Origin: Klebsiella pneumoniae | GTDB lineage: Bacteria; Pseudomonadota; Gammaproteobacteria; Steroidobacterales; Steroidobacteraceae | Assembly (NCBI GenBank): GCA_945860725.1 | Contig: CAMAQZ010000004.1 | Span: forward strand, 1-64,000 | Length of the DNA: 64,000 bases | Direction: 5' to 3' | In this document: piece after piece, positions 34,657 through 40,627 of the stretch | Numbering within the stretch: position 1 is the stretch's first letter | Layout: every line of letters starts with the position of its first letter | Program-made: the position numbers and the translations under genes | Notes under the pieces: model-generated | Databases searched by the model: none | What the model saw: only the letters and a program-made list of their open reading frames with translations | Told to the model about the DNA's origin: nothing

Positions 34657-35574
34657 CTATTTCACTGCGGGTTGCACCGCGGCCGGCGGTGGGAAGGTCT
34701 TCTTGTAGAGGGTCCAGCTGGTCTCGTTCTCGCGCGCGTCATCACCCGGGGGCGGGGTGCGATACGCGGGATACTCCTGTTCGATCGCCGTGCGCATGAC
34801 CTTGGGCAGCTGCGAATAGTCGTCGATCTTCCGACCGGCGGCGTGCATGTAGATGATGCCTGCGCGTCCGCTCATCTCCATCCAAGGTAGCCAATCGGCC
34901 ATCCGCACCCAACCGACATTGACCGCCGGGTTCGAGTTGCGCGGATCGGTGAGCTCAGCGACCTTGCCAAAGAAATTGAACATCTCCGTGGCGTGGTAGA
35001 AGCCGCCGATCTGCTTCTGGTAAGCGCCTGCGAGTGGGTTGGAATAGAACAGCGGTACCGTGATGGTGTCCCACCAAGTGTCCCCGCTGATGGTTCCGCG
35101 CCAGCCCGTCAAGCGGCTGTCGGCGGTCGCCGGGAACACGGGCTGCTGGTTGACCGGATCGTTGGTGGTCTGCAGCACCTTGACGGTCTGGCCCGTCCAG
35201 GGGTTCTTCCATTCGCGCAGGATCTCGCCCGTAGCAGGGTCGAGGTAGAGCAGCAGTTCGCGCGATACGAGGCGCCAGCCGGTGCCGCGCTGCGGATCGG
35301 TCACGGTGACGCATTGGCGGACGTTCATGCCCTCGACATCGAACAGCTTGCGGTCACGCTCACCGGGTACGCGTGCGAAGGCCTCGCCGTGGAAGGTGTA
35401 GGTGACGGCGACGTTATCGATCGCCGAGCACTGGATCTTGCGCTGCGCCAAAGAAGCCCCAGCGGGCGTAGACAGGTCGAGCGCTGCCGACTTCTTCTGT
35501 TGGGCGTCGGCGAGTGGGACGGCGGCGAGCAGCGCGGCGAGGGCGGCGGCGAGCGCGAAGATCGGACGATTCAT
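34657..35574 (-). CDS. DUF1838-like exported protein
   Basis: A 305-residue exported protein resembling the DUF1838 family. A signal peptide (FALAAALAALLAAVPLADA) leads to blocks such as VTYTFHGEAFARVPGERDRK, LFDVEGMNVRQCVTV, DPATGEILREWKNPWTGQTV and WLPWMEMSGRAGIIYMHAAG. The function of the family is not known; members look like periplasmic lipid- or steroid-associated proteins, which is weak inference. The C-terminus is Pro-rich. It is transcribed ahead of the RRM gene. Confidence 0.75.
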   Translation of the reverse strand: MNRPIFALAAALAALLAAVPLADAQQKKSAALDLSTPAGASLAQRKIQCSAIDNVAVTYTFHGEAFARVPGERDRKLFDVEGMNVRQCVTVTDPQRGTGWRLVSRELLLYLDPATGEILREWKNPWTGQTVKVLQTTNDPVNQQPVFPATADSRLTGWRGTISGDTWWDTITVPLFYSNPLAGAYQKQIGGFYHATEMFNFFGKVAELTDPRNSNPAVNVGWVRMADWLPWMEMSGRAGIIYMHAAGRKIDDYSQLPKVMRTAIEQEYPAYRTPPPGDDARENETSWTLYKKTFPPPAAVQPAVK

Positions 35575-35666: not shown

Positions 35667-38447
35667 TCATTCCAGATAGGCGTAGCCGTTGAGCTCGCGC
35701 TCGTAGAAGCGCCGCAATTCCTGGCCCTCCGCCACGGTCATGCGCCCCTCGCGGATCGCGCGTTCGCAGTCGCGGGCGAGCGCCGGTGCGAGTTCGGCGA
35801 CATCGTACTCCATGTATTCGAGCACCTTGTTAGCGGTGTCGCCGGCGACGGTTTCTTCGATGAACCAACCGCCGTCGTCCTCCAGCCTGATGTGCACCAC
35901 ATGGGTGTCCCCGAACAGGTTGTGCAGGTCACCCAGCGTCTCTTGATAAGCGCCTACCAAGAACGCCGCGAGGTAATACTCGTCGCCTTCCTCCATCTCG
36001 TGGACCTCGAGCGTGCGCTTGATCTCGCGGTGGCTGACGAAATGGTCGATCTTGCCGTCTGAGTCGCAGGTGATGTCGGCGAGCACCGCATGGCGTGCAG
36101 GACGCTCATCGAGGCGATGGATCGGCATGATGGGGAACAGCTGGTCGATGGCCCAGGAGTCGGGCAGCGACTGGAAAACCGACATGTTGCAGAAGTAGAG
36201 GTCCGAGAGGATGGTCTCGATATCCTTGAGCTCCTCGGGCACTTCGTCCAGCTGCCGGCACAGGTCGCGGATGCGCGCGCAGGTGGCCCAATAGAGCCGT
36301 TCGGCGAGACCACGCAGTTCGAGGGACAGCAGGCCGAGGTTGAACATCTGCAGGCATTGCTCGCGTGCGGTCAGCGCGTCGTGCCAACACTCGACCAAGC
36401 GTCGTCCGCTCGCTTCGCGGTAGGCGTCGAGCAGATCGAGTATGGGCTGCGGAAAGACTTTGTCCGCGCCTTCGTCCTCGCGCCCGCTGACATCGAATCG
36501 ATCGAGCGCCGAGCGCCCGAGGACGTTGAACACCAGGATGCTGTGGTGCGCGGCGATGGCGCGGCCGGATTCGCTGATGATCATCGGATGCGGGATGCCG
36601 CGGGTCTTGCAGACGCTGCCGATGCGGTGCACGACATCATTCGCGTACTCTTCGACGCTGTAGTTCATCGAGGAGGCATCGTTGCTGGCCGAGCCATCGT
36701 AGTCGATGCCGAGACCACCGCCGACGTCGATGTACTCGAGGCCGGCACCGAGAAGTTTGAGCTCCGCATAGACATGCGCGAGCTCGTTGATGGCGTCTTT
36801 GACGCGCTGGATGTCCTGCAACTGGCTGCCCGGGTGGCAGTGCACGAGCTTCAGGCAGTCGAGCATGCCGTGACGGCGTAGTTCCGCGACCGCTTCCAGG
36901 ATCTCGGTGATGAAGAGGCCGAACTTCGACTTCTCGCCGGCTGAACCGCTCCAGCGTCCCGAGCCTTCGCTTGCGAGTTTGACGCGTATGCCGATCTGCG
37001 GCCGCACGCCGAGCCGTTGCGCGTGCTTAATGATGAGGCCGAGCTCCGAGTAGTTCTCCACCACCGGCACGATCGAGCGGCCGAGCTTGGTGGCCAGCAT
37101 CGCGGTCTCGATGTAGGCGTCGTCCTTGAAGCCGTTGCAGACGATCAGCCGGTCCGGCGAGTTCTCGCTCATCGCCATGACCGCGAGCAGCTCGGGCTTG
37201 CTGCCGGCCTCGAGACCGAAACCGAACTCCGCTCCGCAGCGGAACACCTCCTCGACCACCAGGCGCTGCTGGTTGACCTTGATCGGGAACACCGCCGCGT
37301 AACGGTTGCGGTAATCGTTCTCGGCGATCGCGCGGCTGAAGGCATCGTACAGCTGGCGCATCCGGTGGCCGAGGATCCCGGAGAAGCGCAGCACCAATGG
37401 GGCGGTGAGGTCGCGTGCCTTGAGGCCTTGTACGACATCGTGGAGGTCGATCTCGCGGCCCGGCTGCTGCTCCGGGCGCACCACCACATGACCGCGCTCG
37501 TTGACATCGAAGTAGCCTTGGCCCCAAGCCCGCACATGGTAGAGCTCGCGCGATTGCGCGACGCTCCAGGCCGCAGCCGCGGGTGAGTGCTGCGGCTCTG
37601 GCGCAGCGCTGGTCGCCACTGGCCGGGCCGGATCGCGGATCCACTCGCTCCACGACCCTGGGTAGAGCTTGCCGCCGCCAAGCCCGGCATGCTCGAGCGT
37701 CAACAGGTTGACGCAGGCGCTGACCCCTGAGCCGCACATGGCGATGAGTGTGGGCGGCTTGCGCCCCGCGAGCGTCGCTCGCCAGCGCGCTTGCAGCGTC
37801 GCGACCGGCAGCGCACGGCCACCCTCGAAGTGCTGGGCGTAGGGTTGGTTGACCGCCCCCGGCACATGACCCGCGATCGGATCGACGGTCTCGTTGCGGC
37901 CCGCGAAGCGTTCCGCACCGCGCGCATCGACCAGGCAGATCGCGCCGTCGGCGAGTCCCGACTGCACCGCCGCCGTGTCGGCGGTCATCGTCGGATCGGG
38001 GGTGCCGGTGAAAGTCTGCACGGCTCTCGGATGCACGGTCTGGGAGGTGGGCAGGCCCGCCGCGCTCCACGCCGCCCATCCGCCCTCGAGCACGGCGACC
38101 CGCCGATGGCCGAGCCAGCGCAACAACCACCAGGCGCGCGCAGCGAACACGCCGATGTCCTGGTCGTAGAGGACGACCTGGGTGTCGGGACCGATGCCCC
38201 AAGCGCCCGCCTGACGGGTGAACTGCGCCGGGTCCGGCAGCGGGTGGCGGCCAGTCGTCGGCGTCACCGCCGAGGACAGGTCACGGTCGAGATGCGCGTA
38301 TTGCGCCCCCTCGATGTGGCCTGCAGCGAACGCCGCCTCGCCCCAACCGGGCTGCGCCAACTCGAAACGACAGTCGAGGAGCACCCAGTCCGGGTCATGC
38401 AGATGGGCGGACAGGGTGGCGGTGTCGACGAAAGTGCGATGTTCCAT
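35667..38447 (-). CDS. speA: Fusion of two-domain sulfurtransferase and biosynthetic arginine decarboxylase
   Basis: A 926-residue fusion. Residues 1 to about 280 are a tandem-rhodanese 3-mercaptopyruvate/thiosulfate sulfurtransferase: LLDCRFELAQPGWGEAAFAA, LYDQDIGVFAARAWWLLRWL, and the active-site Cys in IAMCGSGVSACVNLL, ending in GSWSEWIRDPARPVA. A linker of about 15 residues leads to a full SpeA: AWSVAQSRELYHVRAWGQGY, the PLP-Lys in AVFPIKVNQQRLVVEE, VHCHPGSQLQDI, EYIDVGGGLGIDYDG and a complete C-terminus. Arginine is decarboxylated to agmatine. The ATG at 38447 has GGAG nine bases upstream. It is divergent from GST and near homospermidine synthase. Confidence 0.92.
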   Translation of the reverse strand: MEHRTFVDTATLSAHLHDPDWVLLDCRFELAQPGWGEAAFAAGHIEGAQYAHLDRDLSSAVTPTTGRHPLPDPAQFTRQAGAWGIGPDTQVVLYDQDIGVFAARAWWLLRWLGHRRVAVLEGGWAAWSAAGLPTSQTVHPRAVQTFTGTPDPTMTADTAAVQSGLADGAICLVDARGAERFAGRNETVDPIAGHVPGAVNQPYAQHFEGGRALPVATLQARWRATLAGRKPPTLIAMCGSGVSACVNLLTLEHAGLGGGKLYPGSWSEWIRDPARPVATSAAPEPQHSPAAAAWSVAQSRELYHVRAWGQGYFDVNERGHVVVRPEQQPGREIDLHDVVQGLKARDLTAPLVLRFSGILGHRMRQLYDAFSRAIAENDYRNRYAAVFPIKVNQQRLVVEEVFRCGAEFGFGLEAGSKPELLAVMAMSENSPDRLIVCNGFKDDAYIETAMLATKLGRSIVPVVENYSELGLIIKHAQRLGVRPQIGIRVKLASEGSGRWSGSAGEKSKFGLFITEILEAVAELRRHGMLDCLKLVHCHPGSQLQDIQRVKDAINELAHVYAELKLLGAGLEYIDVGGGLGIDYDGSASNDASSMNYSVEEYANDVVHRIGSVCKTRGIPHPMIISESGRAIAAHHSILVFNVLGRSALDRFDVSGREDEGADKVFPQPILDLLDAYREASGRRLVECWHDALTAREQCLQMFNLGLLSLELRGLAERLYWATCARIRDLCRQLDEVPEELKDIETILSDLYFCNMSVFQSLPDSWAIDQLFPIMPIHRLDERPARHAVLADITCDSDGKIDHFVSHREIKRTLEVHEMEEGDEYYLAAFLVGAYQETLGDLHNLFGDTHVVHIRLEDDGGWFIEETVAGDTANKVLEYMEYDVAELAPALARDCERAIREGRMTVAEGQELRRFYERELNGYAYLE

Positions 38448-38477
38448 CTCATAATTCTCCGGCCTGCGCGTTACCGT

Positions 38478-38483
38478 TACAAT
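38478..38483 (+). promoter_or_regulatory. -10 box of the GST gene, leaderless layout
   Basis: TACAAT (38478-38483) lies seven bases before the ATG of the GST gene, and no ribosome binding site is present. A weak -35 (TTCTCC, 38455-38460) is 17 bases upstream. The mRNA would begin at about the start codon. Confidence 0.4.
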
Positions 38484-38490
38484 CCTTTGC

Positions 38491-39174
38491 ATGGCCATCG
38501 ATCTCTGGTGGGGCAGCGGCAGCCCCTACTCTTGGCGGGTGCTGCTCGCCCTCGAGCACAAGCGGCTGCCCTACGACAGTCACCTTCTGCAGATGTCGCT
38601 GCAGGAACAGAAGGCGCCGCAGATGCTGGCGATGAATCCGCGTGGTCGTCTGCCGGTGCTCAAGCACGACGACTACGTGGTCTTCGAGTCGGTGGCGATC
38701 CTGTACTACCTCGACCTCAAGTACCCCGAGCCGCCGATCTTCGGCCGTTCGCCTGAGGAAGCTGCCGTGATCGTGCGGGTCATCGAGGAGTTCCAGGCCT
38801 ATACCGATCCGCACATCATGGGCATCTGCCGCACATTGCTCGGCACCGGCCCGGGACCCGCAGATGAGCCGCCGCTGACGGTCGATGGCCTCACCGACGC
38901 GATGCATGTCGTGGCGCGCGAGGCCCGCACCATCGAGCAGCGCGTGTCGCGGTTCGATTGGATCGTGGGCGATGACTACAGCGCCATCGACATGGTCATC
39001 TTCCCCGCCATCCAATTGCTGCGGCGCGCCCTCGCGCGACCCGGCGCCGGCGATCTCGCCAGCCGGTTCCTGCCCATCGATTCCAACTACCCTGCGCTCG
39101 GGCGCTGGCTCGCCCGCATCGAGGCGCAGCCCGGCTATGCGCGCACCTGCCCGCCGCATTGGCGGAACGATTGA
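38491..39174 (+). CDS. Glutathione S-transferase family protein
   Basis: A 227-residue GST. The N-terminal thioredoxin-like half begins WWGSGSPYSWRVLLALEHKR, where a Ser in GSPYS is the likely glutathione-activating residue, and continues to NPRGRLPVLKHDDYVVFESV with the cis-Pro and the Glu-Ser pair that bind glutathione. The C-terminal half is helical (FDWIVGDDYSAIDMVIFPAI). The substrate is unknown. It is divergent from the SpeA fusion gene and sits 31 bases before homospermidine synthase, probably in one transcript. Confidence 0.9.
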   Translation: MAIDLWWGSGSPYSWRVLLALEHKRLPYDSHLLQMSLQEQKAPQMLAMNPRGRLPVLKHDDYVVFESVAILYYLDLKYPEPPIFGRSPEEAAVIVRVIEEFQAYTDPHIMGICRTLLGTGPGPADEPPLTVDGLTDAMHVVAREARTIEQRVSRFDWIVGDDYSAIDMVIFPAIQLLRRALARPGAGDLASRFLPIDSNYPALGRWLARIEAQPGYARTCPPHWRND

Positions 39175-39205
39175 GTCACTACTCCCACACGAACGAGCGC
39201 ACATC

Positions 39206-40627
39206 ATGACGAACCATAAGATCCACGTGAAGTTCCCGGGCCGTATCGTGTTCATCGGCTTCGGCAGCATCGGTCAGGGCGTGCTGCCGCTCATCTTGCG
39301 CCACATCGGCACCGACGCCAGCCGCATCACCGTGGTCGCGCCGGATGAGCGCGGCTCGCATGTCCTGCAACATTTCGGCGTGAGCTTCATCAAGCAAGCG
39401 ATCAAGCAGGATAACCTCCGCTCGGTGCTCACCCCTGTGGTGGGCGAGGGCGATTTTGTCATCAACGTGTCGGTCGATGTGTCGTCCATCGATCTCGTCC
39501 GCTTCTGCCGCGAGCGCGGCGCGTTGTATCTCGACACCTGCATCGAGCCTTGGCCGGGGGGCTATACCGATCCCAGTCTTCCCGCCGCGCGCCGCACGAA
39601 CTACGCGTTGCGTGAGACCGCGCTCGCGCTGCGCGAGGGCGCCGCCGACGCACCGACCGCGGTGCTCACCCATGGCGCCAATCCGGGCATGGTGTCCCAC
39701 TTTGTGAAGCAAGCGCTGCTCAACATCGCCGCCGACACCGGCGTCGCTGCAGGTGATCCGCACACGCGCGAGGATTGGGCAGGGCTCGCGCACGCGCTCG
39801 GCATCAAGGTCATCCACATCGCCGAGCGCGACACGCAGGTCTCGCCGGTGCGTAAGCGTCCGGGCGAGTTCGTGAATACCTGGTCGGTGGACGGCTTCGT
39901 CAGCGAGGGCTGCCAACCCGCCGAACTCGGTTGGGGCTCCCACGAGCGACATTTTCCTGCTGATGGCAACCGCTACGATTTCGGCCACGGATCCTCTATC
40001 TTCCTCTCGCAGCCGGGTGCTGCGACGCGGGTGCGCACCTGGACGCCTCGCGCTGGGCATTTCCACGGCTTCCTCATCACACATGGTGAGGCGATCTCGA
40101 TCTCCGACCACCTCTCCGTGCGTGATGGCGACCGTGTGGTCTACCGCCCGACCGTGCATTACGCCTATCACCCCTGCGATGACGCGGTGCTGTCGGTGCA
40201 CGAATTCGCTGGCCGCAATTTCGTCATGCAGGACGAGCAGCGCATCCTCATGGACGAGATCAACCCGGGTGGCATCGACGAACTCGGTGTGTTGCTCGCC
40301 GGTCATAGCCGCAACGCTTATTGGTACGGTTCACAGTTGAGCGTCGATGAGGCGCGCGAGCTCTGTCCCTTCAACAATGCCACCAGCCTTCAGGTCACCG
40401 TGGCGGTGCTCGCGGGCGTCGTGTGGGCGATGGAGAACCCGCGCCGGGGCGTGGTCGAACCTGACGAGATGGACTTCCGCCGCGCGCTCGAAGTCTGCAA
40501 ACCCTACCTCGGTCCGGTGGTCGGCGCCTACACCGACTGGAACCCGCTGCAGGATCGTGAGCGGCTCTTCCCCGAGGAGCTCGACCGGGAGGATCCCTGG
40601 CAGTTCCTCAATATCCGCGTCCGCTGA
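39206..40627 (+). CDS. hss: Homospermidine synthase
   Basis: A 473-residue NAD-dependent enzyme making homospermidine from putrescine. The Rossmann start is RIVFIGFGSIGQGVLPLILR. Family blocks include LYLDTCIEPWPGGYTDPSLP, VLTHGANPGMVSHFVKQALL, WGSHERHFPADG, RNFVMQDEQRILMDEINPGG and GHSRNAYWYGSQLSVDEAR. The full length fits the saccharopine-dehydrogenase-like bacterial enzymes. With arginine decarboxylase nearby, the window shows the first and last steps of an arginine-to-homospermidine route; the agmatine-to-putrescine genes are not here. Confidence 0.95.
   Translation: MTNHKIHVKFPGRIVFIGFGSIGQGVLPLILRHIGTDASRITVVAPDERGSHVLQHFGVSFIKQAIKQDNLRSVLTPVVGEGDFVINVSVDVSSIDLVRFCRERGALYLDTCIEPWPGGYTDPSLPAARRTNYALRETALALREGAADAPTAVLTHGANPGMVSHFVKQALLNIAADTGVAAGDPHTREDWAGLAHALGIKVIHIAERDTQVSPVRKRPGEFVNTWSVDGFVSEGCQPAELGWGSHERHFPADGNRYDFGHGSSIFLSQPGAATRVRTWTPRAGHFHGFLITHGEAISISDHLSVRDGDRVVYRPTVHYAYHPCDDAVLSVHEFAGRNFVMQDEQRILMDEINPGGIDELGVLLAGHSRNAYWYGSQLSVDEARELCPFNNATSLQVTVAVLAGVVWAMENPRRGVVEPDEMDFRRALEVCKPYLGPVVGAYTDWNPLQDRERLFPEELDREDPWQFLNIRVR

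Follow-up and report, generated by a model that had tools for sequence, protein, structure and literature searches.

A sulfurtransferase fused in frame to the arginine decarboxylase SpeA in one clade of freshwater bacteria

In the 64,000-nucleotide stretch of DNA analysed here (the window), a single open frame on the minus strand joins a two-domain sulfurtransferase to a biosynthetic arginine decarboxylase, SpeA (35667..38447; 926 codons plus the stop codon TGA), and this true single-frame gene fusion is confirmed in independent relatives of one clade. The translation of 926 amino acids contains no internal stop, as the first-pass annotation of the window had read at the same coordinates without giving the strand. 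The gene is present as a single copy in the source genome (2.15 Mb, 110 contigs, 98.85% complete), in which the other rhodanese matches are single domains and the two other matches to PLP-decarboxylases lie on other contigs, neither of them matching SpeA. An alternative ATG at 38498 would lengthen the open frame by 17 codons, but it overlaps the start of the divergently oriented glutathione S-transferase (GST) gene; the ATG at 38447 is shortly preceded by a GGAG in the source genome (G000) as well as in two fused relatives (G007, G020).

Distribution and reality of the fusion

The fusion occurs in five of the 24 genomes of the genus (G000, G007, G020, G014 and G021), which form a small set of freshwater bacteria. 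Compared with the gene of the source genome, the fusions of G007 and G020 are 97% identical and that of G014 is 83% identical, and in G021 the contig breaks inside speA and is continuous across the junction. Using the sulfurtransferase half for tree reconstruction, the fused genes form one group with a bootstrap value of 100 and an SH-aLRT value of 99, and the same single group is found with the SpeA half (four rows, SH-aLRT 97). The other members of the genus have separate tandem genes (17 genomes), genes located apart from each other (G019) or no usable locus (G016). A clade of conserved fusions, which the first-pass annotation had named as the observation that would support its reading, is hence present, and the case that it had set against this reading, a missed stop codon at the junction, is excluded because the same fusion recurs in four further genomes, including the junction of the fifth, truncated one. 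That two genes were joined artificially during sequencing or assembly is a practically negligible explanation: the source is a draft metagenome-type assembly in 110 contigs, but the fusion recurs in five separate assemblies (97-83% identity) with differing in-frame linkers, and both halves keep the conserved synteny on either side.

When 84,980 species genomes were scanned with a peptide pattern, no independent fusion was detected among the loci retrieved, and there was no further one among the matches listed from 217 family genomes, of which the cases with long open frames were inspected, or among 369 genomes of the class. In seven class genomes with long open frames around speA, and in one class genome with a 66% identical SpeA, the upstream region gave no match to the sulfurtransferase of the fusion. 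Besides, there was no place in plasmid records covering 80% of the fusion query, and no open-access paper was found that describes a fusion or an operon of a sulfurtransferase and an arginine decarboxylase.

Two complete halves and a variable linker

The N-terminal half (37614..38447, minus strand, residues 1-278) contains two stretches matching the Pfam rhodanese domain PF00581 and thus belongs to the two-domain rhodanese superfamily. Its closest solved relatives are the 3-mercaptopyruvate sulfurtransferases (MST, SseA) of E. coli (1urh) and Leishmania (1okg). The active-site loop CGSGVSA (37716..37736, minus strand, residues 238-244) with the catalytic Cys238 is located in the second of the two rhodanese domains and aligns with CGSGVT of both structures, and M237-V242, A244 and C245 are invariant in an alignment of 35 sequences. 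With the two rhodanese domains and the CGSGV[S/T]A loop, this half resembles SseA/MST and also the two-domain thiosulfate sulfurtransferases. The loop agrees with the catalytic pattern CG[S/T]GV[T/S]A of SseA, whereas the score against the SseA equivalog model NF008557 is 127 bits at a cut-off of 250, which limits the assignment to a two-domain sulfurtransferase and implies no substrate. In contrast to SseA/MST, the fusion's sulfurtransferase thus stays below the curated cut-off for this enzyme and carries SpeA at its C-terminus. The AlphaFold2 model reaches a pLDDT of about 90 over most of residues 11-270, and a Foldseek search with this half matched MST and rhodanese structures with a target-normalised TM score of about 0.85.

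The C-terminal half (35670..37568, minus strand, residues 294-926) comprises all domains of a biosynthetic arginine decarboxylase: Pfam detects Orn_Arg_deC_N, Arg_decarb_HB and Arg_decarbox_C, with the helical-bundle and C-terminal domains (PF17810, PF17944) above the cut-off, and the NCBIfam model TIGR01273 (speA) is matched over its full length (1-624 of 624) with 752 bits at a cut-off of 624, in line with NF003763 (853 bits, cut-off 369). The PLP-lysine block PIKVNQQRLV (37257..37286, minus strand, residues 388-397) with K390 is invariant in the alignment and aligns with the SpeA proteins of E. coli (3nzq) and V. vulnificus (3n2o), and the C-terminal active-site motif CDSDG (36054..36068, minus strand, residues 794-798) is identical in these two and in C. 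jejuni SpeA (3nzp). Homology to known SpeA proteins therefore extends over 633 residues, including all domains and both motifs; the differences are the 278-residue sulfurtransferase at the N-terminus and the loss of SpeA's own start codon. From these features, the half is predicted to convert arginine to agmatine. The AlphaFold2 model of this half is partly confident; its Foldseek matches are SpeA structures, but over its full extent it fits 3n2o poorly (rmsd 14), and for these reasons no interface was derived from it. As the input alignment for AlphaFold2 was shallow, the relative placement of the two halves was left uninterpreted. An earlier structure alignment (A1) was dropped for a second one (A2), as it had mis-aligned the sulfurtransferase-only rows onto SpeA; in A2, tandem relatives with both genes in frame were translated across the stop. 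Taken together, both complete enzyme modules of the first-pass annotation, the two-rhodanese sulfurtransferase with its CGSGVSA loop and SpeA with its PLP-lysine block, were recovered by domain models and structural alignment, and the in-frame Ala/Pro junction without a stop codon proved to be a defined linker.

This linker consists of 15 residues (37569..37613, minus strand, residues 279-293), of which residues 281-292 are predicted to be disordered (AlphaFold2, pLDDT about 32). Neither its sequence nor its length is conserved among the fused genomes, with lengths of 45, 66 and 36 nt that are all multiples of three and in frame. Within the linkers of G014 and G021, the SpeA leader (ARRGP[S/P]W) can still be discerned, and no in-frame ATG, GTG or TTG is found in these genomes from residue 250 to at least 10 residues into SpeA. 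As no start codon is left near the junction of these two genomes, their SpeA would be made only as part of the fusion. The three remaining genomes (G000, G007, G020) have a lone in-frame GTG at residue 277 without a Shine-Dalgarno sequence, and neither an ATG nor a Shine-Dalgarno sequence was found in or near the linker.

An ancestral operon at a polyamine locus

Tandem operons of the same family encode the same two proteins in the same order and with the same neighbours as the fusion, but as two proteins with a stop in between, the fused form being derived in one clade. Among 88 unfused loci examined in the family (genus included), a non-random sample since 40 of them had been chosen for long open frames or in-frame stops in the hunt for fusions, 81 are tandem with sseA directly upstream of speA and seven are not. 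Other families of the order keep sseA and speA apart. Two genes are present in all other tandem relatives.

In 10 of 17 unfused relatives within the genus, the speA start lies on the sseA stop in a 4-nt overlap (ATGA, GTGA or TTGA), and such a conserved co-location of stop and start is a signature used for translational coupling (PMC3711429). One of these 10 is G005, to which the fused genes are closest among the unfused relatives on the SpeA tree; it has an ATGA overlap (ACATGACG), and its speA is in a different frame from sseA, which argues for a frame-shifting indel and not for a simple change of the stop codon. Judged from these sequences, the fusion most likely goes back to a small frame-shifting indel, which would have removed the overlapping stop and start of an older, translationally coupled sseA-speA pair once, in the ancestor of the five sampled species. 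The reverse direction, with the fused form being ancestral and the separate genes of the relatives resulting from fissions, is very improbable. In several unfused relatives, sseA and speA do share a frame and are separated by a single stop, but this agreement is enriched by the picking of genomes with long open frames. Furthermore, both trees place the fused form within the genus and the family, which sets one gain against many losses, the other families of the order have the genes apart, and the sampled deep-branching families are without fused genes.

Throughout the family, the surrounding genes keep the order GreB–HSS–GST–(divergent)–sseA–speA. Starting from the ATG of the fusion, a divergent control region of 43 nt (38448..38490) leads to the ATG of the GST-family gene (38491..39174, plus strand; Pfam GST_N/GST_C), a conserved neighbour that is followed by a further one, the gene for homospermidine synthase (HSS; 39203..40627, plus strand; phmmer E 4e-177 to 4plp). 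The first-pass annotation had missed both the adjacent homospermidine synthase and the family-wide operon. All five fused genomes have precisely the same distance of 43 nt between the two divergent starts, within which they share a GATTGTAACGG.AAC block. No match to the sigma-70 consensus was found in these 43 nt, and scanning for promoters and terminators yielded nothing beyond the chance level. The GST and homospermidine synthase genes (38491-40627) make up the divergent half of the polyamine locus. Directly downstream of the fusion on the same strand lies a gene for a DUF1838 protein (34657-35574), a neighbour in most members of the genus.

AguA and AguB are encoded elsewhere in the genome, and neither an agmatinase-family protein nor a spermidine-synthase-family protein (SpeE) was found in the source genome. 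This gene content is consistent with a route in which agmatine, formed from arginine by the SpeA part of the fusion, would be converted by AguA and AguB via N-carbamoylputrescine to putrescine and by the neighbouring homospermidine synthase to homospermidine. To our knowledge, the sulfurtransferase has no known place in this route. In the fused genome G014, there is no match to agmatine deiminase, and an arginase-family gene (L222, 4233-5201) lies beside an ornithine cyclodeaminase-like open frame; this genome may either have a different route to putrescine or be incompletely assembled. A separate observation concerns the SpeA sequences of four genomes (L048, L049, L050, L230), one from a Phycisphaeraceae, two from Gemmatimonadota and one from another family of the same class: with 64-66% identity to SpeA of this family, they far exceed the roughly 45% of other lineages, which suggests that speA was transferred laterally without sseA.

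Independent or coupled halves

We consider it probable that the gene yields one bifunctional protein, in which a short flexible linker connects a two-domain rhodanese-fold sulfurtransferase at the N-terminus to a PLP-dependent arginine decarboxylase at the C-terminus. Both parts would be active, with the sulfurtransferase working independently and without channelling to SpeA, and the main effect of this single fusion event would be the obligate 1:1 production and co-localisation of both enzymes, with the sulfurtransferase domains displayed around the SpeA oligomer. Both halves are maintained by purifying selection, with dN/dS values among the fused genomes of 0.10–0.25 (sulfurtransferase) and 0.02–0.16 (SpeA).

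One pattern is not predicted by such a passive tethering: in the fused clade, the SpeA half (35670-37568; loci L125, L137, L132) has evolved faster than in most unfused relatives, and its neighbours have not. The mean SpeA distance to outgroup genera is 0.267–0.271 for G000, G007 and G020 and 0.242 for G014, compared with 0.196–0.238 for the unfused members, and the distances of GST, HSS and the sulfurtransferase half of the fused genomes are within the range of the other members. Tajima tests on SpeA of the source genome against most unfused members gave p values between about 0.07 and 1e-6, varying with the pair and the outgroup chosen, against G008, G019 and G022 they were mostly not significant, and on the neighbour genes they gave no signal. 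Since these tests were post hoc, many and non-independent, the acceleration is a hint only. Three SpeA positions that are at least 98% conserved in the other family members are changed in all four fused genomes with an intact SpeA (S444A, T588S and Y607H).

This acceleration of SpeA alone, together with the three substitutions, could be taken as a trace of functional coupling: the attached sulfurtransferase would act on SpeA as a modifier or regulator, e.g. by persulfidation of a SpeA cysteine, or would tie cysteine breakdown to polyamine synthesis. The history of the two genes, adjacent throughout the family, overlapping in many members of the genus and finally fused, points in the same direction. 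However, the two enzymes share no metabolite, sseA is present in family genomes without a speA match and speA in genomes without an adjacent sseA, and the linker is predicted to be disordered. Besides, the acceleration is modest, equals that of the unfused G008, G019 and G022 and is explained as well by relaxed constraint. We regard such a coupling as unlikely, and as less likely still its more specific form, in which the sulfurtransferase would tune SpeA, for instance by sulfane-sulfur modification, sulfur status would gate homospermidine synthesis and the accelerated changes would have adapted SpeA. The first-pass annotation had left the choice between such a sulfur-polyamine link and a mere fixation of co-expression: the latter is supported by the tight tandem pairs with their frequent 4-nt overlap, and the former is unsupported apart from the hint given by the SpeA acceleration, with the SseA score being low (127 bits at a cut-off of 250) and each gene occurring without the other. 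Natural cysteine desulfurase-rhodanese chimeras (PMC8931425) likewise combine a rhodanese domain with a PLP enzyme, but in them the partner is the sulfur donor, with an obvious transfer path, whereas the partner here is an amino-acid decarboxylase without sulfur chemistry.

It is also conceivable that the cell contains two ordinary enzymes in practice, either by cleavage of the product at the linker or by additional internal initiation of SpeA, and we regard this as unlikely, slightly more so than the coupling. E. coli SpeA occurs in processed forms, and an Ala/Pro-rich linker with predicted disorder would suit a cleavage, but no conserved site is visible in a linker that varies in sequence and length. 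The GTG at residue 277 could in principle start a separate SpeA in three of the genomes, and to this extent it also speaks against a single bifunctional protein; in turn, a conserved start or Shine-Dalgarno sequence is missing, and G014 and G021 have no start codon near the junction at all.

We found no description of a sulfurtransferase–SpeA domain architecture, whereas both component enzymes are well known. The fusion has been caught near its origin, as close relatives still show the overlapping two-gene ancestor, and it offers a clean natural experiment for following the fusion of translationally coupled operon genes and the later fate of each half. It also draws attention to the sseA–speA–GST–homospermidine synthase locus of the whole family, in which no polyamine role is known for the sulfurtransferase. 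The benefit of the fusion to the cell may be nothing beyond fixed co-production; if a coupling of the two halves were true, it would connect sulfur metabolism to polyamine synthesis in a new way.
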